Below, piece after piece: positions 5,083-22,591 of a DNA stretch of 64,000 nucleotides. Position numbers and translations under genes: made by a program. Source of the stretch: Desulfovibrio gilichinskyi (GTDB lineage: Bacteria; Desulfobacterota; Desulfovibrionia; Desulfovibrionales; Desulfovibrionaceae). The notes beneath the pieces are model-generated. The model had not been told where the DNA came from. It saw only the letters and a list, made by a program, of their open reading frames with translations, and searched no databases. The number at the start of each line of letters is the position of its first letter. Position 1 is the first letter of the stretch. Location of the stretch: assembly GCF_900177375.1 (NCBI RefSeq), contig NZ_FWZU01000003.1, positions 558,001-622,000 of the forward strand. Reading direction: 5' to 3'.

Positions 5083-6480
5083 ATGGCATTACACCATAAA
5101 AATTCAATCAAAGAGAATTTGCTGGATGATGTATACGCTTCAACCGATATGTCGGTGCGTATGCCCAAATATGTATTTCCTGCTGATGAGCATGATCCTC
5201 GTCATGCCTATCAGGTGGTGCATGATGAATTGATGCTGGACGGAAATTCACGCCAGAACATGGCTACTTTCTGTCAGACTTGGGTAGACCCTGAAGTTCA
5301 CAAACTTATGGATGAGTGTGTAGATAAAAATATGATCGATAAGGATGAATATCCTCAGACGGCTGAACTTGAAGCCCGTTGCGTGCATATGCTTGCCGAT
5401 CTTTGGAATTCGCCTGATGCCGCTAATACTTTAGGATGTTCCACCACCGGTTCCAGTGAAGCTGCTATGCTCGGAGGCATGGCTTTGAAATGGCGATGGC
5501 GTGATAAAATGAAAAAAGAAGGCAAGCCTACAGACAGGCCGAATCTCATATGCGGTCCGGTGCAGATTTGCTGGCATAAATTTGCCCGTTACTGGGATGT
5601 TGAGTTGCGTGAAATTCCTATGGAAAAAGATCGTTTGATTATGACCCCCGAAGAAGTCATCAAACGGTGTGATGAAAATACGATTGGAGTTGTCCCTACG
5701 CTCGGAGTTACATTCACTTGTCAGTATGAGCCTGTCAAAGCGGTCTGTGAGGCACTGGATAAACTTCAAGCTGAGACGGGGCTTGATATTCCTGTTCATG
5801 TTGACGGCGCAAGCGGAGGGTTTCTGGCTCCGTTTGTAGAGCCTGAACTGGAATGGGATTTCCGCCTTGAGCGCGTCAAATCGATCAATGCTTCAGGTCA
5901 TAAATACGGACTTGCTCCGCTTGGCGTCGGATGGGTTATCTGGCGCGATAAGGAAGATCTGCCAGAAGATTTGATATTCCGCGTTAACTATCTTGGCGGC
6001 GATATTCCAACATTCGCTCTAAACTTTTCGCGTCCGGGGGGGCAGATTGTAGCGCAATATTACAATTTTTTACGGCTCGGCAGAGAAGGGTACCGCAAAA
6101 TACATCAGGCTTGTTATGATACGGCGCAAGCCCTTGCTAATAGAATTGCAGAGATGGGGCCGTTTGAAATTATTTATAACGGAAAAGGCGGCATCCCTGC
6201 ACTCAGCTGGAAATTGAAAGAAGGAGTTGATCACGGTTTCTCGTTGTATGATCTCTCCGATCGCATGCGCAGTCGCGGATGGCAGGTTCCGGCCTATTCC
6301 ATGCCTGCCAATCGTGAGGATTTAGTCATCATGCGCATGCTTGTCCGTCATGGGGTAAGTCGTGACCTTGGAGAGCTATTACTGGCTGATATGCAACGTT
6401 GTCTTGATTTCTTGAAAAAGAATCCGATGACTATGCCTTTGTCAGAAGAAGATGCCGGAGGATTCAGTCACTCGAAGTAG
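5083..6480 (+). CDS. gadB: Glutamate decarboxylase (PLP-dependent)
   Basis: 465 residues, the normal family length. Cofactor residues are clear: DGASGG (D241) and [11 protein letters not shown] with the Schiff-base lysine K274. The reaction is L-glutamate to GABA plus CO2, consuming a proton, in the cytoplasm. A strong AAAGGAG precedes the ATG, and the gene is 26 bp after gadC, so the pair forms a two-gene operon closed by the terminator at 6508. A histidine is present three residues from the C-terminus (FSHSK), near where the E. coli enzyme has its pH-switching histidine; equivalence is an inference. Acid-resistance decarboxylase systems are not a hallmark of sulfate reducers, so this may be an acquired or stress-niche trait. 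Confidence 0.95.
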
Positions 6481-6507
6481 ATATAGAAATTATTTAATTT
6501 CTTTTTG

Positions 6508-6540
6508 CCCTGCTTGATATATTTCAGGCAGGGTTTCTTA
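6508..6540 (+). terminator. Terminator after gadB
   Basis: Stem CCCTGC/GCAGGG (6508-6513 with 6528-6533), 14-nt loop, followed by TTTCTT. It closes the gadCB unit. Confidence 0.7.
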
Positions 6541-6705
6541 ATTGGTAACGCATTTAAAAAAAGCAAAAACGATTAGCAGTATTTTTGACTTGTTATTTTG
6601 CTTATTTAAAAAATTTACTTGACTGTTTTTGGCAATGTTTTAATTTTAAAGAATGTTACAATAGTGTGTCATTTTTGTTAAAATTTAGTGTGCCTGTGGT
6701 GAATT

Positions 6706-9700
6706 ATGAAAATGTTTTTTGATAATCAAGATTATGAACTGCTCGGAATTGTCCGTGATATTCTCAACCGCGATGTCGCTACCAGCGAAGATCGTTATCT
6801 CCTTGCGCCCCATTTAAGTCCGCACGGCATAAGGGAACTGGTTGGGTCGCGCGGGCTGAGAATCGCATATTCTGTTGCGCATTTGTTAAGTTCTCTGGAA
6901 ACCGGAGGCGTCTCCGGGCGACTTTCTGCCTTGCGCTCATTGCATGATGAAGTTCTCGCAATGCCTAAAGGTGCGCTCCGCATGAACACTGCGCGCGTGC
7001 TTATTCAGATAATGAAGAAGCTTGTCCGTTCGGTTGATGATGAAGAATTATGCCTTGAACTTGCCCACAATTTTCATGAGGCGGCAACCGGCAAGCCTCG
7101 TATTGTCCGCGAATTTCTTGATAATTATTATCTGCTTGAGATGCCGGAAGAATGGAACCATATTTCATTTGATCACCGCGTTCATGATGCAAACAGCAAA
7201 GGTCGTAAATCACCTACTCATTTGATAATGGATGCCTGGATCAAGGGCATCAGAAGTTTGACGGTTGTATATTATAATCATGTCGGCGTAGTTGAATCAC
7301 GCGAGCTTTATGAAGCTGCTCGGATTATGGATATCGATGTTAAAGTCGGCATCGAATATCAGGTGCGCTGGCAGGACCGTTCAGTCGGGCTTATCTGGAC
7401 ACTTGACGGGTTTGATAACGGACGTGATTTTGAGAGATTCATCCAATCAAAAGAAGTTGTTAAATTTTTGGAAGAAGGACGTGAAGTTGCGCTTTGGCAG
7501 CAAAAGCAGGTCGTCAAAAGTCTGGACCATTTTAACAAGCATCAGCGTGAAAGACTCGGAGATATGTTCGGGGTTATTTGCCCTGAAATATGCGAATCCG
7601 ACTTTTTAGCATTTGTCGGAACAGGGCAGCCTTCATTTTTACATATGGGTCGTTATATTCTTGAGCTGCTCATGCCTGTGTTAAAAAAACGGGTTAAAGA
7701 GCTTAAGGATCAGTATAAGGATGCTGACGAAACTAGGCGTGCGGAGATAGAGAGCCTTGTTGCGGCAATAAATAAATTTGATGTTGAAATGATTCTTGAA
7801 CAATTCATGTGTTCTGATGTTGCGTGTTCAATTGACGGGCGTATTGTTCACTCTGAACTGACAGATTTGCCGGAACTTATGACTCTTTCACCCGAGGAGT
7901 TCGTACAGAGGATTCGCCGAATCGCATCGCAGAAAAGAATAACTCTTGTTCCGGACGGACTGACTATCGCAGATATTATCTGTATTCTGTATAAATGCGG
8001 TGGTACAATCCGGTATATTGAAGAGTTCAACCTTAAACGTATTTCTTTAGGAACCGCCAAAATCGCGGAAGAAGTTCATGCATTACGTCAGGTGCTTAAT
8101 GAACGGAATTTGCTTGAACTTAAAAATATTATTTCCCGGGCAATTCATGTCCTTGAAAATACGGGAACTGTAGAAGAGCGGGAAGTTCTTGACTGTCTGC
8201 ACCACGTTCTCACGCACATGGGAACGTTCAGTTACATGTATGGCGGTTCAAGGTTGCAAGCCCGCATCGGAAGCGGGTCTTCCGGTATTATTGCCCGCAC
8301 ACGCGGTATGGGGATGGTTGTTGCTGATACTTTACCCAGCCGGGCCGCAAAAAAAGTTTTTTTTGAGCTTGAACAGGGAGGATGCCCTATTCCTGCCAGA
8401 GCCGAAGTCTGTCTTGATGTCACTTTGACTCCGAAATCATCGGACAGCACCTTTTATAATCGATCAATGAGGTTTTTACGGACCATTCCGCTGATCGATG
8501 GATTCGGTTATGAAAAATCAGAGGATTGGCGTTTGACCCGTTTTATTGCATGTCCGAAAAATAAAACAAATATAGCAATGCTTGGCGGTCTTGGCGACTC
8601 CGGGAATAATTTTACTTTGGACCATATACACGGGAGTAAAAAGTCTCGTTCCTTCAGGTATATGAACTCGACGCTGAAAAACGGGCTTAAGATTCTACTC
8701 GGTTTTATTCCTGCTTTTCTGACTTTTGCGCTGACTAAAGATTGGTGGCTTTTACGTTTCTTCGGCGCGTTTATCTGGTTCGGTATTACCGGCTGGCGCA
8801 ATATTACTCAAGCCGTGCTTGGCGGAGGCGGTTTTATCCGTTCGCCACTTTCGCGCTGGAATGATTATATCAGCTGGAGCAGAATATCTGATTCGTTGCT
8901 GTTCACAGGATTCTCGGTTCCGTTGCTTGATTATTTTGTTAAAACTTTACTTCTCGATCAGGGATTTGGCATAAATACGCACACTAACCCTGTAATGCTT
9001 TACGGGGTTATGGGGCTAGCAAACGGACTTTATATATTCAGTCATAATATGTTCAGAGGATTGCCACGAAGTGCTGCATTTTGGAATCTGTTGCGGTCCA
9101 TATTCACTGTTCCGCTTGCTATCGGTCTAAGTAGTGGAATAGGCGCCGTGCTCGGAATTGCCGGAGTTGCTTCAGTTGAGATGGTACTCCAGAGGTGGGC
9201 AGCAGTTATCTCAAAGCTGGCATCAGATATGGTCGGCGGAATTATTGAAGGGTTAGCTGACCGTCATGAGAATATCCGCATGAGATTGTGGGATTATGAA
9301 AGAACTATCAAAAGTGTTTTTGACTGCTATACACAACTTGAAATGATGTTCCCTGAACGAAACGGACGTGACATGTTGTCTGATCCTGAAGAATTTATTG
9401 CAGAAATGAAAAGCACCGGTAGCGATCTTGAAAAAATATTTATAATCAATGCGCTTGATTTGTTGAGATTCTGGATGTTTCAGCCGCGTGCTCGTAGCGC
9501 CCTCAGGTTAAGTCTGAAGCACATGAGTATTGAAGAAAAGTCTATCTTCCTTGCATCGCAAAACGTCTTATTCGCAGAAAAAGAAATAAGCAGACTGCTC
9601 GTTGACGGTTTGATCGGAAAAAGTTTCGGCAGACCGCTGGCGTTTTATCTGGACTATGGAAAAGATTATCTTGAGGCTATGAAGAAAGAAGTTTTAGTTG

Positions 9701-13046: not shown

Positions 13047-15119
13047 ATGGGTATTGATCGCAGAACTTTTATTCAATTGGTTACAGGTGGTGTTGTAGGT
13101 TCACTCTTCACACCTGTTATTTGGAAATCTTTGGATGATGCCGCTATTTGGTCCCAGAACTGGTCTTGGATTCCAAGACTTAAGTACGGAGAGATCACTG
13201 AGCAGGCAACATTGTCCAAATTTGGACCTTCCCCGTGTTCTTTGACGGTTAAATCCGTCGGAGGCAGCCCTTACGTAGTAAAGGGGAATGTTGAAAATGA
13301 AATGAGCAAAGGCGGCGTTGACGCGATAAGCGCAGGCGGTGCACAGCTTCTTTACAGTCCTTCCCGTGTGAATGGACCTATGAAAAAGGTCGCAGACGGT
13401 AAGTATGAGTCTATCTCCTGGGAAGAAGCTGAGAAAATGCTCTCAGAAAAACTTTCTGCCGTTAAAGGGCAGGCCGGAAAACTCGCCATCGTAAGCGGCG
13501 ACGCTACCGGAACTTCCAGCGAAGTGTTGTCTGCTTTTGCCGCAGGTATGGGAAGCAATGATTGCTACCTTATGTCTGGTGATGCGCAGTCAGCAGCAGT
13601 TGCGCTGGACAATATGGGCGGCAGCGGACAGATCGGTTATGATCTGGACAATGCTGATTTTGTTTTGTTCGTGGGAGCAGATGCAATGAACTCATGGGGT
13701 TCAGTTGTAAGAAATCAGCGTGTATTTTCCGATATGCGTCCTACCGGTGAAGACGTAAAGAGTGTGTATGTTTATGCCGGACCTTTCCTTAACAGTACAG
13801 CTTCTTCAAGCGATAAGTGGATTCCTGTGGCCCCTGGTGCAGGTGCTATTTTCAGCCTCGGTCTTGCTTATCATCTGCTTAATTCCGGAGCTTCAGCTTC
13901 AGTTTCTGATTTTGCTGATTTCAAAACTCTGGTTATGTCCAGATTTACTCCTGACAAGGTTGAAAAAGCAATCGGTGTAGCTCCAGGAGTTATGGCTGGA
14001 CTCGCTAAGCAGCTTATGTCTGCTTCCGCACCGCTTGTTATTTCAGGTTCTGAATTCGGACAGGGCGCAGGCGGAGCTGACATTATAGCAGCTTCCGCAA
14101 TCAATATGCTTCTCGGTCAGGTCGGTAAGAAGGGCGGAATGAAGCTCCTCGCTGATCTTCCTGTCGCAGTTGAGTCCGCTGTCAGCCGTGCAGAACTTAC
14201 CCGCAGAGATTTTGCCGGTTATCTTGCAGCAGTGGCTTCAGATAAAGTTAATACTCCTGCAGTGCTTTTGGTTTACGAAGCTAACCCGGTGTATGCAATG
14301 CCACAGGCCGAAACAATGGCTGCCGCAATTGCTAAAGTACCTTTTCTCGTAAGTTTCAGCACATGGATGGATGAAACAGCTTCTAAAGCGGACTTGATCA
14401 TGCCTAACCCGCACAGTTTTGAGCGTTTTGACGATGCACAGACTCCTTACGGAGTCGGTACTGCAATGCTCAGCGCATGTGCTCCGGTCATCGGGCCTCT
14501 TTATAACGGCAAGTCAACAATTGATGTTGTTCTCGGCGTTGCAAGTGTGCTCGGTATTGATCTCGGATATGAATCTGCTGAAGCGGTTTTGCAGGCTAAG
14601 GCCGAAAAAGCCGGAGCAGATTGGGATTCACTTATTGGTGGGGCGGCTTTTATTTCTGATTCTACAGAGTCAGATTCACTTAAGTTTGCTGCGTCCGTAC
14701 TTTCTAAGGCTGTTGCTATGCCTAAGGGTGGCGAACTGGCACTGGCTCCTTATGCTAAGCTCAACGTCGGATCCTCTACAATGGCAATTCCGCCATTGAA
14801 CTGTGTGACAATCAGCAAGTTCGAGCTGCTAGGCAAAGACCTCTTCGTTCAGATTAATGGCGTAACCGCAAAGAAACTTAATGTTTCCGAAGGTTCTAAA
14901 ATTAAGCTTACCGGAACAGGCGGAGAGTGTGTTGCCAGAGTCCACATCAACGAAGGCGTAATGAACGATGTGATTGCCGCACCTCTTGGTTTAGGTCATA
15001 CCGCTTGGGATGTTTTTTCCCGCGGGAAAGGCGATAACATCTTCAAAATTATCACTGTTAGCACTGAGCCCGGCACCGATATGGCCGTCTGGACCAGTTC
15101 TGTCGTGAGCATCGCCTAA
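13047..15119 (+). CDS. qrcB: QrcB, molybdopterin-oxidoreductase-like subunit
   Basis: 690 residues. The N-terminus MGIDRRTFIQLVTGG is a twin-arginine-type signal/anchor, so the protein is exported folded to the periplasmic face. The body follows the DMSO-reductase/CISM large-subunit fold (WEEAEKML, a central Rossmann-like region, and a C-terminal cofactor-domain-like end near 590-690). It lacks the N-terminal CxxC...C iron-sulfur motif and has no obvious molybdenum-ligating Cys/Sec. This fits the description of QrcB as a cofactor-free structural homologue. It lies between qrcA (13 bp) and qrcC (23 bp). Confidence 0.93.
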   Translation: MGIDRRTFIQLVTGGVVGSLFTPVIWKSLDDAAIWSQNWSWIPRLKYGEITEQATLSKFGPSPCSLTVKSVGGSPYVVKGNVENEMSKGGVDAISAGGAQLLYSPSRVNGPMKKVADGKYESISWEEAEKMLSEKLSAVKGQAGKLAIVSGDATGTSSEVLSAFAAGMGSNDCYLMSGDAQSAAVALDNMGGSGQIGYDLDNADFVLFVGADAMNSWGSVVRNQRVFSDMRPTGEDVKSVYVYAGPFLNSTASSSDKWIPVAPGAGAIFSLGLAYHLLNSGASASVSDFADFKTLVMSRFTPDKVEKAIGVAPGVMAGLAKQLMSASAPLVISGSEFGQGAGGADIIAASAINMLLGQVGKKGGMKLLADLPVAVESAVSRAELTRRDFAGYLAAVASDKVNTPAVLLVYEANPVYAMPQAETMAAAIAKVPFLVSFSTWMDETASKADLIMPNPHSFERFDDAQTPYGVGTAMLSACAPVIGPLYNGKSTIDVVLGVASVLGIDLGYESAEAVLQAKAEKAGADWDSLIGGAAFISDSTESDSLKFAASVLSKAVAMPKGGELALAPYAKLNVGSSTMAIPPLNCVTISKFELLGKDLFVQINGVTAKKLNVSEGSKIKLTGTGGECVARVHINEGVMNDVIAAPLGLGHTAWDVFSRGKGDNIFKIITVSTEPGTDMAVWTSSVVSIA

Positions 15120-15142
15120 ATTAAAGTCAGGGGATTCACGTT

Positions 15143-15901
15143 ATGCAACATATTGAATTTGATACTAAATGGACCATGGTAGTTGATCTGGACAAGTGTA
15201 CCGGTTGCGGTGCTTGTATGGTTTCATGCCAGGCAGAAAATAATATAGCACCAATGGAAGACGGTTCTAACAAACTGAAAACTCTTACTTGGTTGCTTGT
15301 TTATGAACTTAATAATGGAAAGGATTTCCCTGAAAGGGAAACAGCATACCTGCCAAGACCTTGTATGCAGTGCGGAAAACCTGCTTGTGTTCCTGTCTGT
15401 CCTGTAGTTGCTACTACTAAGGATGAAGAAGGCGGAATCGTCAGTCAGATTTATCCTCGCTGTATCGGTTGCCGGTACTGTATGGCTGCATGTCCTTACC
15501 ACGCTCGTTACTTTGGTTGGTTAGATCCAGTCTGGCCTGAAGGTATGGACAAAGCACTTTCCCCTTCAACATCTACGCGTCCTCGCGGTGTTGTTGAAAA
15601 ATGTAACTTTTGTCATACCAGATTGCTTAATGCCCGTACGCGTGCACGCGCTGAAGGAATGGATCCTAAGAATCTTCCTGACGGTTGGTATAAACCGGCT
15701 TGTCTTGAAGCATGCCCCACAGGCGCAATCTCTTTCGGAGACTCAAAGAATCCTGAACATAAGGTCCATGATCTTATTAAGGATAAAAATGCTTTCCGTC
15801 TTCTCGAAAGTATCGGCATGGACCCTCAGGTCTATTACATCAGCCGTCGTGATTGGGTGCGTGAGCAGAGTGATAACCACTTGCCTAACGACAAGCACTA
15901 G
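15143..15901 (+). CDS. qrcC: QrcC, periplasmic iron-sulfur subunit
   Basis: 252 residues with four ferredoxin-like cysteine groups: CTGCGACMVSC near residue 18, CMQCGKPACVPVC near 75, CIGCRYCMAAC near 108, and CNFCHTRL with CLEACPTGA near 150-200. This is the CISM four-cluster subunit that links the cytochrome/QrcB side to the membrane quinone site. It has no signal peptide of its own, as usual for partners that travel with a Tat substrate. It sits 23 bp after qrcB and 14 bp before qrcD. Confidence 0.95.
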   Translation: MQHIEFDTKWTMVVDLDKCTGCGACMVSCQAENNIAPMEDGSNKLKTLTWLLVYELNNGKDFPERETAYLPRPCMQCGKPACVPVCPVVATTKDEEGGIVSQIYPRCIGCRYCMAACPYHARYFGWLDPVWPEGMDKALSPSTSTRPRGVVEKCNFCHTRLLNARTRARAEGMDPKNLPDGWYKPACLEACPTGAISFGDSKNPEHKVHDLIKDKNAFRLLESIGMDPQVYYISRRDWVREQSDNHLPNDKH

Positions 15902-15915
15902 GAGGGAGGTCAATA

Positions 15916-17145
15916 ATGGATAGAAATCTCTTCCCCGAAGGCGTAACCCGCTGTGGATTGCCGAAGTTCTCCATATGGATGGCTTTTGTTGCAATATTCT
16001 TACTCTGGGGAGTCTATGCCGCTGTGAAAATATTCGCAAACGGTATCGGCGTAACAGGCTTAGATAACTACTTCGGGTTCGGACTGTGGATTACTTTTGA
16101 CCTTGCGGTTATCGCACTTGGAGCCGGCGCATTCTTTACCGGATTTCTCAAGTACATCCTCAAGATCGATCAACTTAAAAATATTGTTAACTTAGCTGTT
16201 ATACTTGGATTCTTGTGCTACTCGGGCGCAATGCTTATCCTGACTATGGATATCGGGCAGCCGATTCGTGCATGGTTCGGTTACTGGCATCCTAATGTGC
16301 ACTCCATGCTGACAGAAGTTATCTTCTGTATTACCTGCTACTGCACAGTCTTGATCATTGAGTTTATTCCGTTGGTCCTTGAGCAGAAGCAGCTTAATAA
16401 AATTCCTTTCCTGCATCACTTTGCCCATCACTTACATGTGAATATGGCTTTGTTTGCCGGTATCGGAACTTTCCTTTCAACATTCCATCAGGGTTCACTG
16501 GGTGGTATGTACGGCGTTATGTTTGGCCGTCCATATGCCTTCCGTGAAGGTTTCTTCATCTGGCCATGGACTTTCTTCCTTTTTGTTCTTTCAGCTGTTG
16601 GTTCCGGTCCTGTTTTCACAGTTCTGGTATGTACCATCATTGAAAAGATGACAGGCAAAAAGCTTGTGGAATACAAAGTAAAAGCTCTTATGGGTAAAAT
16701 CGCCGGTTCAATGCTCTGTCTGTACATGTTCTTCAAGATCATTGACACATGGGCATGGGCAACCGGTTATCTTCCTTCTGTAGGCCTTACTTTTGATGAA
16801 ATGTTTTACGGAACTATTTACGGTAAATGGTTGATGTGGACTGAACTTGGTTTGTGCGGCGTAGTCCCTGCGATTATGCTGATCACTCCTTCTATCAGAA
16901 ACAATCCCGCTTTGCTTTATACTGCTGCAATCCTCGATTGTATCGGTATCAGCATTAACCGTTACGTGTTCACTGTTCAGACCATCGCAATTCCGGTTTT
17001 ACCTTTTGACAGTTGGCAGACATATGCTCCTAACTGGGCAGAATGGGCTACTTCCGGAATGATCGTCGCTTATGGTATACTTGTACTCAGTCTTTGTTAC
17101 AGGTACCTGCCTGTCTTCCCTCAGGAAGTTAAGCTGAACAAGTAA
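15916..17145 (+). CDS. qrcD: QrcD, NrfD-type integral membrane quinone-binding subunit
   Basis: 409 residues with about ten membrane helices, the NrfD/PsrC family size. It starts with GGAGGGAGG before the ATG. The region around HLHVNMALFAGIGTFLSTFHQGSLGG is the conserved part of the family. It provides the menaquinone site and proton path of Qrc. It is the last gene of the operon; a perfect hairpin follows at 17171. Together QrcABCD couples periplasmic hydrogen and formate oxidation to menaquinone reduction, feeding QmoABC during sulfate reduction. Confidence 0.95.
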   Translation: MDRNLFPEGVTRCGLPKFSIWMAFVAIFLLWGVYAAVKIFANGIGVTGLDNYFGFGLWITFDLAVIALGAGAFFTGFLKYILKIDQLKNIVNLAVILGFLCYSGAMLILTMDIGQPIRAWFGYWHPNVHSMLTEVIFCITCYCTVLIIEFIPLVLEQKQLNKIPFLHHFAHHLHVNMALFAGIGTFLSTFHQGSLGGMYGVMFGRPYAFREGFFIWPWTFFLFVLSAVGSGPVFTVLVCTIIEKMTGKKLVEYKVKALMGKIAGSMLCLYMFFKIIDTWAWATGYLPSVGLTFDEMFYGTIYGKWLMWTELGLCGVVPAIMLITPSIRNNPALLYTAAILDCIGISINRYVFTVQTIAIPVLPFDSWQTYAPNWAEWATSGMIVAYGILVLSLCYRYLPVFPQEVKLNK

Positions 17146-17796: not shown

Positions 17797-18396
17797 TTAG
17801 TAAGGTATGAACCAACTCATTCCTTTCATTTTAGCAGGAATAGGGTTTGTCTTTGCTACGGGATTTGCCTTTTCCCAACAGTCCTGTTCCTGCTCTATCC
17901 ACTCTGGGCGGGAAAGGCGTATTGAGTTGCCTGTGTTGATGCTGTCATCATCACCGCTGAAATGCTGCAAAATAAGGCTTATATTGCCTAGATCGTCATT
18001 GAGTGACCATTTCCAGACTTTCAAAGTTCCAAAGGGGTTGCCTCTCCAGTCGTTTGGTTTTCCGAATCTTTTTTCAAGCATTGAATAAATTTTATCGAAA
18101 AAGTCACTGCTTCCGTCAGCATATTTTAATTTAAATCTTAAAATTATGTCCTTACGATTGCAGTCTCCGACAACAATGTATCCTCCGTTGTATCCTTCAA
18201 GGTCTTTAACTTCAATGCGCTTAATATATTCTTCCTGCCAAGGTGATCTGGCAGAGTCCAAATCCAGAATAGATCTTATTGAAGATAAATTTTGGCCTAA
18301 AGTAATTCCGGCAATTGAATTCGGTGCATTTGCGGCAAAACTGGAGTTTGCCATAAAAATAAGTAACGCAATGCTCAGCAAAAGTATTTTTTTCAT
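17797..18396 (-). CDS. Secreted protein of unknown function
   Basis: 199 residues. There is a clear Sec signal peptide (MKKILLLSIALLIFMANSSFAA, cleavage about residue 22); the mature part is about 177 residues. Visible features: SIAGITLGQNLSSIRSIL just after the signal, a KRIEVKDLEGYNGGYI strand pair, then RFGKPNDWRGNPFG and WKWSLNDD. The overall pattern is a small alpha/beta periplasmic domain. I recognise no family by eye. It lies 47 nt after the cyclic-nucleotide-binding gene and may share its transcript. Confidence 0.75.
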   Translation of the reverse strand: MKKILLLSIALLIFMANSSFAANAPNSIAGITLGQNLSSIRSILDLDSARSPWQEEYIKRIEVKDLEGYNGGYIVVGDCNRKDIILRFKLKYADGSSDFFDKIYSMLEKRFGKPNDWRGNPFGTLKVWKWSLNDDLGNISLILQHFSGDDDSINTGNSIRLSRPEWIEQEQDCWEKANPVAKTNPIPAKMKGMSWFIPY

Positions 18397-18443: not shown

Positions 18444-18941
18444 TTAAATAAGTGTTAAGCCTATAGCAGATTTGCATCCTTCGCAGTTTATATCATACTT
18501 ACTAAGAAATCTTTCTTCTCTGCCACTTATTTTGTCAACTGCAGCTTTGAGAAATTTATTATTAATTTCAGGGAATTGCCCTCTAGCTTTTTCAAATTTA
18601 TCTTGAGTGAGGCGAATACAGACAGTGTCAGTAACCGCTTTAAGGGTAAAAAGTCTTTTGGACTCACCGATCAAAGTCAATGCTCCGACAAAATCATTTT
18701 CCTTAAATATTTGTACCGGCTTTTCAACATTATCTAAGAAAGCTTCCATTCGACCTTTAATAATGAAGTATGCTGATTTATCAATATCTCCGGTATTAAA
18801 TACGGTCGTACCCTGAGCGAAATTTTCGCGCACACAAAGGTAAGCCAGCAACTTCTGAGCTTCCAGTTCAAGCCCTGAAAAATATGCAACCTCTCTCACT
18901 ATCTCCAGATTTTCCTGATACTCACTTGTTTCAGCGCTCAT
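18444..18941 (-). CDS. Cyclic-nucleotide-binding domain protein (partner of ABC exporter)
   Basis: 165 residues, essentially one cNMP-binding beta barrel: ENFAQGTTVFNTGDIDKSAYFIIKG and NDFVGALTLIGESKRLFTLKAVTDT match the family strands. The phosphate-binding cassette is not well preserved (no clean GExA...RxA), so ligand binding is uncertain. There is no DNA-binding domain. The ATG lies 2 nt after the ABC exporter stop, so the pair is translationally linked; a regulatory or docking role on the transporter is an inference. It ends with CEGCKSAIGLTLI, an exposed CxxC. Confidence 0.82.
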   Translation of the reverse strand: MSAETSEYQENLEIVREVAYFSGLELEAQKLLAYLCVRENFAQGTTVFNTGDIDKSAYFIIKGRMEAFLDNVEKPVQIFKENDFVGALTLIGESKRLFTLKAVTDTVCIRLTQDKFEKARGQFPEINNKFLKAAVDKISGREERFLSKYDINCEGCKSAIGLTLI

Positions 18942-18943
18942 AG

Positions 18944-21439
18944 CTACTTTGCTCCATGTATTAGTTCGTAGAGAAGACCTTTCTTCGCGATTAATTCTTC
19001 GTAAGGTCCAATTTCCATAAGCTTACCGGCTTTCATAACGGCGACTTTGTCATAGTTCTTAATAGTATCAAGTCTATGTATTACCGAAATGAGCGTCGAT
19101 TTACCTTTCCATTTTGTTTCTAAAAGGTTTTGGATTCTGTTCTGTGAACGGTTGTCAAGAGCGGAAGTTGCTTCATCCATGATCATAATAGGTGGATTCT
19201 TGAGGAATGTCCGTGCTATTGCCAGCTTCTGTTTCTGTCCGCCTGAGAGCTTATCACCCTTAGTGCCGACCTCGAAATTCATTCCCAGTTCAACAACTGT
19301 TTCAAGCAGATCTGCTTCAATAAGAAGCTGAATCATACTTTGGTTGATAGCGTCCTGAATTTGCGGATGATCAGTTTTAGATTTTCCAAAAAGAATATTA
19401 TCCAAAATTGTTTGTGACGTGATGTATTCGGCTATTTTAAAGAAGTTGAAGGATTCAGGTTTCTCAACTGACGCTTTGTTAAAGAACTGCTGCCTTCCAT
19501 CAAGGATGAGTCCTTTCAACACTGTAGGCAGGGCAACAATTTTATGCTTTCCGGGTATAAAGTTAAGAGCAAGCTGGAGCAGCATCTCTTTATCAGTACC
19601 CTTGATTTCCTGTAATGTCTTGTCATCGAGTCTGCTTGCAAGTTGTTTGTAGCCGTCAAACTCTTCAGTCGGAATAGGGCTTTGCTCAAAGAAGATTTCT
19701 TCTTGAGGTACGTTACCCAAAATATCGACAGTTTGTTTAACTGTTTCCCGCCCAAGGCTCAGGAGAGGAATTTCAAGGTTGGCTTCTTTTAAAAAGTTGG
19801 TAAAGTATTCGTTTGTGGCAAGATTTTTGCCGGCAAAAAATTTACTGTTTGCAGAACCGAATATAATATTGCCTGCAACTGATGAGTAGTCGAGATATTT
19901 ACCTTCCTGATAAAATTCGACGTGATCAGCAAATTTTTCACCGAAATCTGAATGGAAGTTTTTACGAACTGACAGCAGTTGCTCGGACAATTCTTTTTCC
20001 TGTTCAGAATCTACGAGCGTATTCAGTCCGAATCTTAGAACATCAACAAAAATACCTGCCTGTTGAATGCTTTCAATCATATTGTCACGGCTAGGTGTTT
20101 TCTTTTCAGCGTCAGGATCTCCTTCCAGTACTGCGGCACATGAATAGAGCAGGTTATCCTTTATCGATCCTGAAAAAATGAATGGTTCCTGCGCAACAAT
20201 TCCCATATTATGGACCATATCCGCTTTAGTCAGATCATCAACTTCATATCCGTCGATTTTTACCGACCCTCCGGTATATTTATATAGCTGCGAGATACAT
20301 TGTGCCAGAGTACTTTTCCCGCTGCCGGAAAAACCGACAAGGGCAAGCTGTTCACCGGGTTTAAGCTTCAAGTTGATCTGTTTGAGCAGTTTAATGCCCC
20401 CTGAAACAGTAAATCCGAGGTTTTGAACATCAATGCTGCCGGTTAATTTGACTGGAGCTCTGCCTTCCGGTTCAAGCTTGAATTCAGGTTCACAGTCAAA
20501 ATATTCCATGACGCGCTCATAACGGACTGTTGCGTCATTATGAACCTGATAGAATTCCATAAGTTCTTTCCAAGGATCATAAATTTTTTCATAAGCTGAA
20601 AGGAAGGCAACGAGAGCACCAAGGTCGAATTTACCTTGAATTGCAAGATAACCACCGACAAGGAAAAGTAAAAATGGTCCAAGATTCTGAAAAAAGCTGT
20701 TGAGAACTTTGATTCCTTGTCTGTAAAGAATCCATGTAATCCTGATTCTGAAAAGGCGGTCAACAAAAGCACTGTATTTACGGTTTTCGATGCGGTATGA
20801 ACCGTTTCCGTGAATTTCATGTATTCCCGAAATTGTTTCGTTAATATGGCTGCTGAGATTACGGGTGGTGTCGACCCTTTGTTTATTGGCAGTGTTTGAT
20901 TTTTTTTGCAGCTTAGGGACTAAATATATGACAACCGGATATAGTGCGATTGAAATGGCAGCCATGGTCGCATTAAGATAAAACAGGTACGTTGCAAATG
21001 TTACCAGTGTCAGGATATTCGTAACTGGAACTGCGATTGACTGTCCTACATATTCACCGGCCGGAGCAAGTTCTGTAACCAGCGAGGAAACGACCATACC
21101 GGGATTTGCCTTTCTGAAATATCCAAGGGGTAATGTCAGAATATGGGCGTAGAGCTCTTTTCGCATTTTAGCCAGAGTTTCCTGGCCTATGTAAGTCTGC
21201 AGGTACGTAATTGCATACTTTAACAGGCTGGCACCCACAACAGCTATTATGTAAAAGCTGCAGTATCGGATAAGTAAATCTACTTTCCGCATGCTGATGG
21301 CTTGGTTGATAATTAACTTTTGCATTTCCAGCGGAACTACTCGCGTTGCAACTGTGACTAAAATTATAGCCAGTAATATGAGTTGCAATTTTAGATTGCT
21401 CGTCTTTACCCAATACATAAGGGGGCGTTTCGTGATCAT
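18944..21439 (-). CDS. ABC exporter (permease-ATPase) with a long insertion in the ATPase domain
   Basis: 831 residues from the ATG at 21439 (AAGGAG 9 nt before); a TTG at 21463 is a possible alternative start. Six-helix exporter domain at about 15-300. ATPase: Walker A GFSGSGKST 369-377, Q-loop Q417, signature LSGGQ 731-735, Walker B IMIMDE 751-756, H-loop H788. Normally Q-loop and signature lie about 85 residues apart; here they are about 313 apart, so some 230 residues are inserted. Motifs of the post-Q-loop type recur three times: GSIKDNLLY at 424, SVAGNIIFG at 519 and TILDNILFG at 677. It is first in a unit with a cNMP-binding protein 2 nt downstream. The substrate is unknown. Confidence 0.88.
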   Translation of the reverse strand: MITKRPLMYWVKTSNLKLQLILLAIILVTVATRVVPLEMQKLIINQAISMRKVDLLIRYCSFYIIAVVGASLLKYAITYLQTYIGQETLAKMRKELYAHILTLPLGYFRKANPGMVVSSLVTELAPAGEYVGQSIAVPVTNILTLVTFATYLFYLNATMAAISIALYPVVIYLVPKLQKKSNTANKQRVDTTRNLSSHINETISGIHEIHGNGSYRIENRKYSAFVDRLFRIRITWILYRQGIKVLNSFFQNLGPFLLFLVGGYLAIQGKFDLGALVAFLSAYEKIYDPWKELMEFYQVHNDATVRYERVMEYFDCEPEFKLEPEGRAPVKLTGSIDVQNLGFTVSGGIKLLKQINLKLKPGEQLALVGFSGSGKSTLAQCISQLYKYTGGSVKIDGYEVDDLTKADMVHNMGIVAQEPFIFSGSIKDNLLYSCAAVLEGDPDAEKKTPSRDNMIESIQQAGIFVDVLRFGLNTLVDSEQEKELSEQLLSVRKNFHSDFGEKFADHVEFYQEGKYLDYSSVAGNIIFGSANSKFFAGKNLATNEYFTNFLKEANLEIPLLSLGRETVKQTVDILGNVPQEEIFFEQSPIPTEEFDGYKQLASRLDDKTLQEIKGTDKEMLLQLALNFIPGKHKIVALPTVLKGLILDGRQQFFNKASVEKPESFNFFKIAEYITSQTILDNILFGKSKTDHPQIQDAINQSMIQLLIEADLLETVVELGMNFEVGTKGDKLSGGQKQKLAIARTFLKNPPIMIMDEATSALDNRSQNRIQNLLETKWKGKSTLISVIHRLDTIKNYDKVAVMKAGKLMEIGPYEELIAKKGLLYELIHGAK

Positions 21440-21741
21440 CAAAAGGGGCTCCTTTGGTCTCAATGTAGTAAACTCCTAAGTAAAAAACGAAGATACACAA
21501 CGAGAAAATCAAACAAGTTCATGTAAGATTAAATGCTAAAATATGTTGATGAAAAAAGCGTTAAATGATTACGTAATATTTAAAAATAAATATATTTTGT
21601 TTCCTTGAATATAACTTAATAAGTAAACGTTACATGGGGATAATTTATACCTTTTTGTTGACGTGGGAACAAGGGTTTTCTAACCTAATTCCAGTCAAAT
21701 TGTTTTTTTATCTATTTTGGAGAAAAACAGAGGATAAGGAT

Positions 21742-22185
21742 TTGGTTACTAATCTGCAGTCGCTGACTAGCGATGAAAAAAAATATTCTTTTACGTTAAA
21801 AGCTGACCTTGCTGAGCTAAAAGTCCTTGCGGAAAAAATTGAGAACTTCGGTGAAGAAAATAGGATACCGGAGAAGAATCTTTTTGAGGTTAATTTAGTT
21901 CTGGATGAACTATTTACAAACCTTGTAAGTTATGGATGTTTCTCTGATTCGCATTTTTTTGAGATAATGCTTCGTTTAAAAGACGGGGTTATGTTTATTG
22001 AGATAATGGATGACGGGAAACCTTTTAATCCACTTGATACGCCTGAACCTGAAATTCACTGCGATTGTGATGAAAGAAAAATCGGTGGATTAGGTATCCA
22101 TTTTATGCGTAAAATGATGGATGGTATTGAGTATCGTCTGGATGACGGAAAGAATAGATTAAAGTTGACCAAAATAATTCATTAG
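21742..22185 (+). CDS. Serine-kinase-type anti-sigma factor (HATPase_c, RsbW-like)
   Basis: About 147 residues if started at the TTG at 21742 (GAGGAT 7 nt before). The ORF can also begin at an ATG at 21634, giving 183 residues, but that start has no ribosome site and adds a hydrophobic stretch atypical for the family. The ATPase has ENRIPEKNLFEVNLVLDELFTNLVSYG (N box), MDDGKPFNPL (G1) and IGGLGIHFMRKMMD (G2). Such proteins phosphorylate a STAS-domain antagonist; one is encoded 67 bp downstream, so the two form a partner-switching module. The sigma factor or other target is not in view. Cytoplasmic. Confidence 0.82.
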   Translation: MVTNLQSLTSDEKKYSFTLKADLAELKVLAEKIENFGEENRIPEKNLFEVNLVLDELFTNLVSYGCFSDSHFFEIMLRLKDGVMFIEIMDDGKPFNPLDTPEPEIHCDCDERKIGGLGIHFMRKMMDGIEYRLDDGKNRLKLTKIIH

Positions 22186-22252
22186 TTTTATTGTAAAAAA
22201 GAAATTTTGTCGTCTGCTGGGCGGATATAATTATCATAAATCGGAGGATAAG

Positions 22253-22591
22253 ATGGGCTTGGAAGTTGGTGAAAACAAAAACGGTGGTGTGATTATTTTT
22301 GCGCTGAAAGGAAGGCTTGACTCCAACACCTCTAATGATTTTGAAGAACGTCTTCTGTGTTCCATACAGGGCGGAGAGACAAAGATTATTTTAGATTTTG
22401 AAAATCTTGAGTATATTTCAAGTGCCGGTCTTCGTGTGCTTCTAAAGGCTGCAAGAGAGCTTAAGGGCGGAGATGGCAAGCTTTTACTTTGCTCGCTTAA
22501 AGATTATATCCGTGAAGTTTTTGATCTGTCCGGCTTTGTATCATTTTTGCCTATTTTTAATACAAAGGAAGAATGCATTTCGTCGTTTTAA
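22253..22591 (+). CDS. STAS-domain anti-sigma factor antagonist
   Basis: 112 residues, a single STAS domain. The phosphorylation loop is intact: LDFENLEYISSAGLRVLLKA, with the S-S-A-G serine pair. AAATCGGAGGATAAG precedes the ATG. Its phosphorylation state is presumably set by the adjacent RsbW-like kinase, freeing or trapping that kinase for another partner. A terminator at 22665 follows. Confidence 0.92.
   Translation: MGLEVGENKNGGVIIFALKGRLDSNTSNDFEERLLCSIQGGETKIILDFENLEYISSAGLRVLLKAARELKGGDGKLLLCSLKDYIREVFDLSGFVSFLPIFNTKEECISSF

Follow-up and report, generated by a model that had tools for sequence, protein, structure and literature searches.

We found in Desulfovibrio gilichinskyi an ABC exporter whose ATPase carries the segment next to the Q-loop in three copies and whose gene is followed directly by that of a small protein of the cyclic-nucleotide-binding (cNMP) fold. 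An earlier note on the window, by which we mean the whole stretch of 64,000 nucleotides that was analysed, had remarked that a nucleotide-regulated exporter with a rebuilt ATPase would be unusual. It is no one-off: exporters with the insert form a distinct and conserved type IV ABC exporter subfamily in Desulfobacterota and Pseudomonadota that is apparently undescribed: our search of the literature outside subscription journals found no description of the arrangement. We lean towards reading the system as an ATP-driven exporter with a triplicated segment and a near-obligate cNMP regulatory subunit docked on the enlarged nucleotide-binding domain (NBD), with an envelope glycan or lipid as substrate.

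The open reading frame of 831 residues starts with an ATG at 21439 and ends at 18944 on the minus strand. Pfam places ABC_membrane at residues 20-281 and ABC_tran from residue 352 onwards, the latter match being broken in two, and both Pfam and Foldseek find the transmembrane domain (TMD) and then the NBD on one chain. The model of the protein matched TM287/288, MsbA, Sav1866 and TmrAB in Foldseek, and generic exporter models cover the sequence in two stretches that halt at about 430-480 and restart at about 670. Against the MsbA equivalog TIGR02203 it scored 323.8 bits and did not reach the cut-off of 602, and Pfam found no C39 peptidase domain in it. In ordinary type IV ABC exporters the Q-loop and the signature are about 85 residues apart, and the Q-loop-proximal segment occurs once. 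In the window's exporter 314 residues lie between Q417 and L731 of the signature, with about 230 residues extra, in good agreement with the earlier estimate of about 313. Walker A, LSGGQ, Walker B (IMDEAT) and the H-loop are each present once and intact, as had been claimed, and are kept in 58/58 Desulfobacterota relatives (Table 1). Every canonical catalytic ATPase residue is found in all 58 Desulfobacterota ABC proteins, the window's included, which argues for ATP-driven work in this branch; judged by its sequence, ATP-driven export is the best-supported reading of the window's exporter. The AlphaFold2 (AF2) model has a pLDDT of about 80-93 through NBD and insert and of 41-86 in the TMD, and because the latter confidence is modest we suggest a homodimer by analogy.

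Table 1. Features of the exporter locus, in nucleotide positions of the window; residue numbers refer to the encoded protein.
Feature	Position	Strand	Basis or remark
ABC exporter half-transporter (P0001), 831 aa, TMD + enlarged NBD	18944..21439	-	Pfam, Foldseek
Walker A GFSGSGKST, residues 369-377	20309..20335	-	K375 in 58/58 Desulfobacterota members
Repeat copy 1 (R1), residues 411-485: Q-loop strand, GSIKDNLLY, two helices	19985..20209	-	hhalign, AF2
Insert core, residues 478-672, ~195 aa, family profile A3	19424..20008	-	no Pfam, NCBIfam or PDB match
Repeat copy 2 (R2), residues 500-585: VEFY, SVAGNIIFG, two helices	19685..19942	-	hhalign
Repeat copy 3 (R3), residues 655-732: FNFF, TILDNILFG, two helices, runs into signature	19244..19477	-	hhalign
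ABC signature LSGGQ, residues 731-735	19235..19249	-	motif reading, family alignment
Walker B + catalytic Glu IMIMDE, residues 751-756	19172..19189	-	motif reading, family alignment
H-loop His788	19076..19078	-	motif reading, family alignment
cNMP-fold protein, 165 aa	18444..18941	-	Pfam PF00027, E 9e-15 at 39-119
Phosphate-binding cassette: Glu replaced by Ala87, Arg96 kept, next Ser/Thr replaced by Leu	18654..18683	-	cNMP-fold protein
'Cluster 3' protein, apparent signal sequence, no Pfam/NCBIfam match	17797..18396	-	directly downstream; own profile 8.7e-70
RsbW-like HATPase_c_2 protein, partner-switching kinase type	21634..22185	+	divergent from ABC gene
STAS protein, anti-sigma-factor-antagonist type	22253..22591	+	own profile 8e-49; family named on orthologue

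The exporter-typical motif occurs three times, starting at G424 (GSIKDNLLY), S520 (SVAGNIIFG) and T677 (TILDNILFG), within one residue of the positions first reported (424, 519 and 677). The surrounding segments were compared with hhalign as sub-profiles R1, R2 and R3 cut from an alignment (A1) of 49 orthologues. R2 matched R3 with a probability of 97% (E 3e-11), R1 matched R3 with 87% (E 4e-6) and R1 matched R2 with 79% (E 1.5e-5), against at most 6% and mostly less than 1% for non-overlapping control segments; one control pair overlaps R2 by construction and is exempt from this ceiling. Matches of 79-97% compared with controls of at most 6% place the repeat beyond chance. Structure prediction, which the earlier note had proposed as a check, gave the same order of elements in all three copies: one strand each (412-415, 507-509 and 664-666), a helix at the xNxxFG motif (426-430, 521-526 and 678-683) and two helices after it, with the VEFY strand of copy 2 and the FNFF strand of copy 3 taking the place of the Q-loop strand of copy 1. 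Further helices at 482-499 and 591-659 link the extra copies. The suspected duplication of the helical subdomain was therefore right as to an internal repeat but not as to its extent, since only the first, Q-loop-proximal part of the subdomain is present, three times over, together with additional connecting helices.

Residues R492, R649, N524, F527, N681 and G685 are invariant in 132/132 family members from the two phyla, and across these 132 sequences the key residues of the insert are kept more strictly than those of the ATPase itself. By sequence the insert has no significant match in the PDB, and none of the Pfam and NCBIfam models covers it. When the insert core was modelled alone AF2 gave a pLDDT of 90, and a Foldseek search of this model against the PDB returned no match below E 0.001, so that the isolated core resembles neither a known domain nor a complete helical subdomain. 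In a genome scan the insert turned up at 53 Desulfobacterota-type loci, with identities of 45-86%. The insert profile A3 was detected in 28/395 Desulfobacterota genomes, in 30/398 Pseudomonadota genomes and in 79/240 genomes (about a third) of one Pseudomonadota class, symbiotic rhizobia included; the class is likely Alphaproteobacteria, as the rhizobial relatives L069 and L070 belong to the family. Scans of 148 Bacteroidota and 149 Bacillota genomes, both run without a positive control, gave no hit. In a tree built from TMD and insert columns alone a single branch with a support of 1.0 splits the 58 Desulfobacterota from the 74 Pseudomonadota members.

Only 2 nt separate the stop of the ABC gene from the start of the cNMP gene downstream, as had been noted, and the two genes are probably translationally coupled. 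The 165-residue product consists of the cNMP fold, Pfam detecting no DNA-binding, effector or other domain. A search for the same pair in other genomes, also proposed earlier, found the cNMP part adjacent or fused in 122/132 assessable loci: immediately downstream of the ABC gene in 56/58 Desulfobacterota loci, and adjacent (56) or C-terminally fused (10) in 66/74 Pseudomonadota loci. The ten fusions are single-chain ABC-cNMP proteins and as such argue strongly for joint action of the two parts; Pfam recovers ABC_membrane, ABC_tran and cNMP_binding in a single protein for L122 and for L137, where the ABC_tran match is weak and under the curated cut-off. Two Desulfobacterota and eight Pseudomonadota loci have no adjacent cNMP gene, meaning that the subunit is either not absolutely required or encoded elsewhere. 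The canonical cNMP pocket, as in CRP and PKA, requires a Glu for the ribose and an Arg for the phosphate, and the window's protein, with Ala87 and Arg96, does not have this pair. The earlier idea of a nucleotide-regulated exporter is thus supported as to the pairing but not, in the window, as to regulation by a canonically bound cyclic nucleotide.

The two phyla have undergone opposite losses. Glu and Arg are never kept together in the Desulfobacterota cNMP partners (0/56): most retain Arg, with Gly, Ala, Thr or Ser in the Glu position, and another group retains Glu, with Trp in the Arg position. Pseudomonadota partners keep both in 60/66 cases, whereas it is their ATPase that is eroded, with the Walker A Lys present in 31/74, the Walker B Glu in 28/74, the H-loop His in 16/74 and Lys, Asp-Glu and His jointly in at most 1/74 ABC proteins, counts that depend on the MAFFT alignment of degenerate motifs. 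The erosion takes many different forms within Pseudomonadota, and some members may still hydrolyse ATP. Because a single branch of the tree parts the two phyla, the opposite losses amount to one contrast and not to many independent ones. A catalytically active ABC partner encoded beside the eroded proteins was considered and rejected, since those neighbouring ATPase genes that were inspected have two Walker A motifs, are peptide-importer-like and lack exporter-type signatures.

These data bear on several other readings. That the insert is an unrelated domain whose xNxxFG-like motifs arose by chance would fit the Foldseek search of the insert core alone, which matched neither ABC helical subdomains nor anything else, but the profile-profile E-values of 3e-11 to 1.5e-5 against the controls and the strand-helix-helix-helix order found thrice in a confident AF2 model make this highly improbable. 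We also think it rather unlikely that the cNMP protein regulates something elsewhere, for example transcription, and is merely co-transcribed, the NBD insert being structural and without a regulatory role. Stand-alone cNMP domains are known as regulators of other processes and a few insert-bearing exporters have no cNMP gene next to them; on the other hand the protein has no domain for DNA binding or another effector function, the order and orientation of the ABC-cNMP pair are conserved across two phyla, ten fusions tie both parts into one chain, and insert residues stay strictly conserved even where those of the ATPase are lost.

The Pseudomonadota sequences invite the thought that the ABC fold has become a cNMP-regulated scaffold, channel, scramblase or receptor, with hydrolysis being lost in that phylum and accessory elsewhere. 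The near-absence of joint Lys, Asp-Glu and His (at most 1/74), the invariant insert and the pocket kept in 60/66 all agree with this, yet Lys, Glu and His persist in several Pseudomonadota members and every catalytic residue is present in 58/58 members of the window's branch, so we hold it to be doubtful. Still less probable to us, if only by a shade, is that the master switch itself has changed. Ligand binding by the cNMP domain would then have replaced ATP hydrolysis as driver or gate in Pseudomonadota, giving a cyclic-nucleotide-gated ABC device, and the Desulfobacterota protein would have stayed ATP-driven, with its cNMP partner turned into a nucleotide-independent adaptor; if so, the triplicated segment would be invariant in both branches because it serves as their shared mechanical coupler.

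Gene neighbourhoods in Desulfobacterota were counted over the 37 loci flanked by 4 kb or more on either side. An RsbW-like gene lies within 5 kb in 23/37 of them (downstream and co-directional in 17), a STAS gene within 5 kb in 22/37 and a SpoIIE gene within 5 kb in 12/37 by phmmer, or in 16/37 by profile without a distance limit; all three occur near 11/37 loci and none of them in 13/37. The usual order is ABC, cNMP, RsbW and STAS, all co-directional. In the window the RsbW-like and STAS genes (21634-22591) are divergent and outside the exporter operon, and the sole SpoIIE-profile match, at 635-2065 (E 6.5e-6), is weak and distant. A family search of the organism's own genome gave two stand-alone RsbW-type matches, one of them beside the exporter, and a chance neighbourhood is thus unlikely. 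The cluster 3 protein is found near 17 of these 37 loci; with a second uncharacterised protein of 250-330 residues and a PqqD-like protein it makes up a set (clusters 3, 4 and 6) whose members recur in 16-17/37 and which stands beside the module in three different arrangements. Rhizobial loci have glycosyltransferases, a UDP-sugar dehydrogenase, an MBL-fold hydrolase, DUF3095 and a class III cyclase around the pair, and among Pseudomonadota loci glycosyltransferases lie near 34/58 and class III cyclases near 8/58.

Returning to the ATP-driven exporter with a cNMP subunit, we propose that the window's protein would act as an MsbA/Sav1866-like half-transporter, presumably as a homodimer. The Q-loop-to-signature stretch is the transmission of ABC transporters and its segment normally forms the face that couples to the transmembrane helices; here this segment, triplicated and joined with extra helices, would make up a helical module of about 195 residues. 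The cNMP-fold protein would be a near-obligate regulatory subunit of the exporter complex, most likely docked on the enlarged NBD and possibly on the insert itself, from where it could bias NBD closure and, through it, export. In Pseudomonadota it is probably a true cyclic-nucleotide sensor, given the intact pocket and the cyclases near some loci. The Desulfobacterota subunit, the window's included, would have to work with no cyclic nucleotide bound in the canonical way since the two ligand residues never occur together. Canonical cyclic-nucleotide control of the window's protein is unlikely, and another ligand, or control via partner-switching proteins, is more likely; from their position near the exporter the SpoIIE/RsbW/STAS genes are the best candidates for a replacement input. 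The substrate would most likely be an envelope glycan or a glycolipid or lipid, a suggestion whose glycan context is limited to the Pseudomonadota, a distant branch with an eroded ATPase. A triplication that stays invariant across two phyla despite catalytic decay gives a direct handle on the role of this segment. A near-obligate cNMP subunit would be a dedicated regulatory partner for an ABC exporter, and the opposite losses offer a way to test if cyclic nucleotides are able to replace ATP, or to override it, in an ABC protein.

The type IV exporters MsbA, Sav1866 and TM287/288 resemble the window's exporter in TMD and NBD fold, motif order and half-transporter layout, but they have one Q-loop-proximal segment and no insert of 230 residues where the window's exporter has the segment triplicated, and to our knowledge they have no dedicated cNMP-fold partner. 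Among solved structures, the cNMP profile is by sequence closest to SthK-type cyclic-nucleotide-gated channels and to PKA/PKG regulatory domains. Their cNMP domain is the regulatory part of a larger protein, as proposed here; the presumed effector in our case is an ABC exporter, however, and the window's branch does not retain both residues of the pocket. Component types of the SpoIIAA/SpoIIAB/SpoIIE (RsbV/RsbW/RsbU) system recur beside the Desulfobacterota exporter. The output of classical partner switching is a sigma factor, but none turned up among the annotated recurrent neighbour clusters here, and the link to the exporter is drawn from gene neighbourhood alone. The closest experimental precedent for an ABC exporter with a cNMP-fold part is HetC, a peptidase-containing ABC exporter of Nostoc that requires its cNMP-fold domain; canonical ligands, cAMP among them, did not stabilise this domain, which can bind ppGpp in vitro (PMC10986499). 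In HetC the cNMP domain is N-terminal and shares its chain with a C39 peptidase, whereas the window's exporter is without the peptidase, and its family has a separate downstream or C-terminally fused cNMP part and an enlarged NBD.

Some records of the family deserve comment. The ABC gene of L069 (S. meliloti pSymB, 6353-9104) lies in two overlapping frames, 6353-7066 and 6816-9104, which suggests a frameshift in that record. SMb20813, a possible S. meliloti locus tag, has a passing mention in the literature as an msbA homologue, which we could not link to the locus found here. The ABC and cNMP proteins of L004, a record titled Candidatus Aminicenantes, score identically to those of L005 against the queries, and L004 is therefore probably a misbinned Desulfobacterota contig.

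Near its C-terminus the cNMP partner has a CxxC ahead of a G-(I/V)-(T/S)-L-I-like end in 25/51 Desulfobacterota cases (18444-18500 on the minus strand of the window), possibly a metal or redox site. An MBL-fold gene of L122 (5023-5850) matches the Apyc1 model of Pfam, an anti-Pycsar cyclic-nucleotide hydrolase; an Apyc1-type gene lies about 100 nt upstream of the fused ABC-cNMP gene in just three loci, L122 and, going by similarity, L120 and L126. L130 (5358-7085) and L134 (4865-6619) encode class III cyclases with a 2Fe-2S ferredoxin domain directly downstream of the cNMP gene, which could be a redox-to-cyclic-nucleotide input. The window itself also encodes, at 13047-17145 on the plus strand, a molybdopterin-oxidoreductase-like protein, a 4Fe-4S ferredoxin-like protein and an NrfD-like membrane protein, which resemble the Qrc complex of sulfate reducers, judging by their translations.
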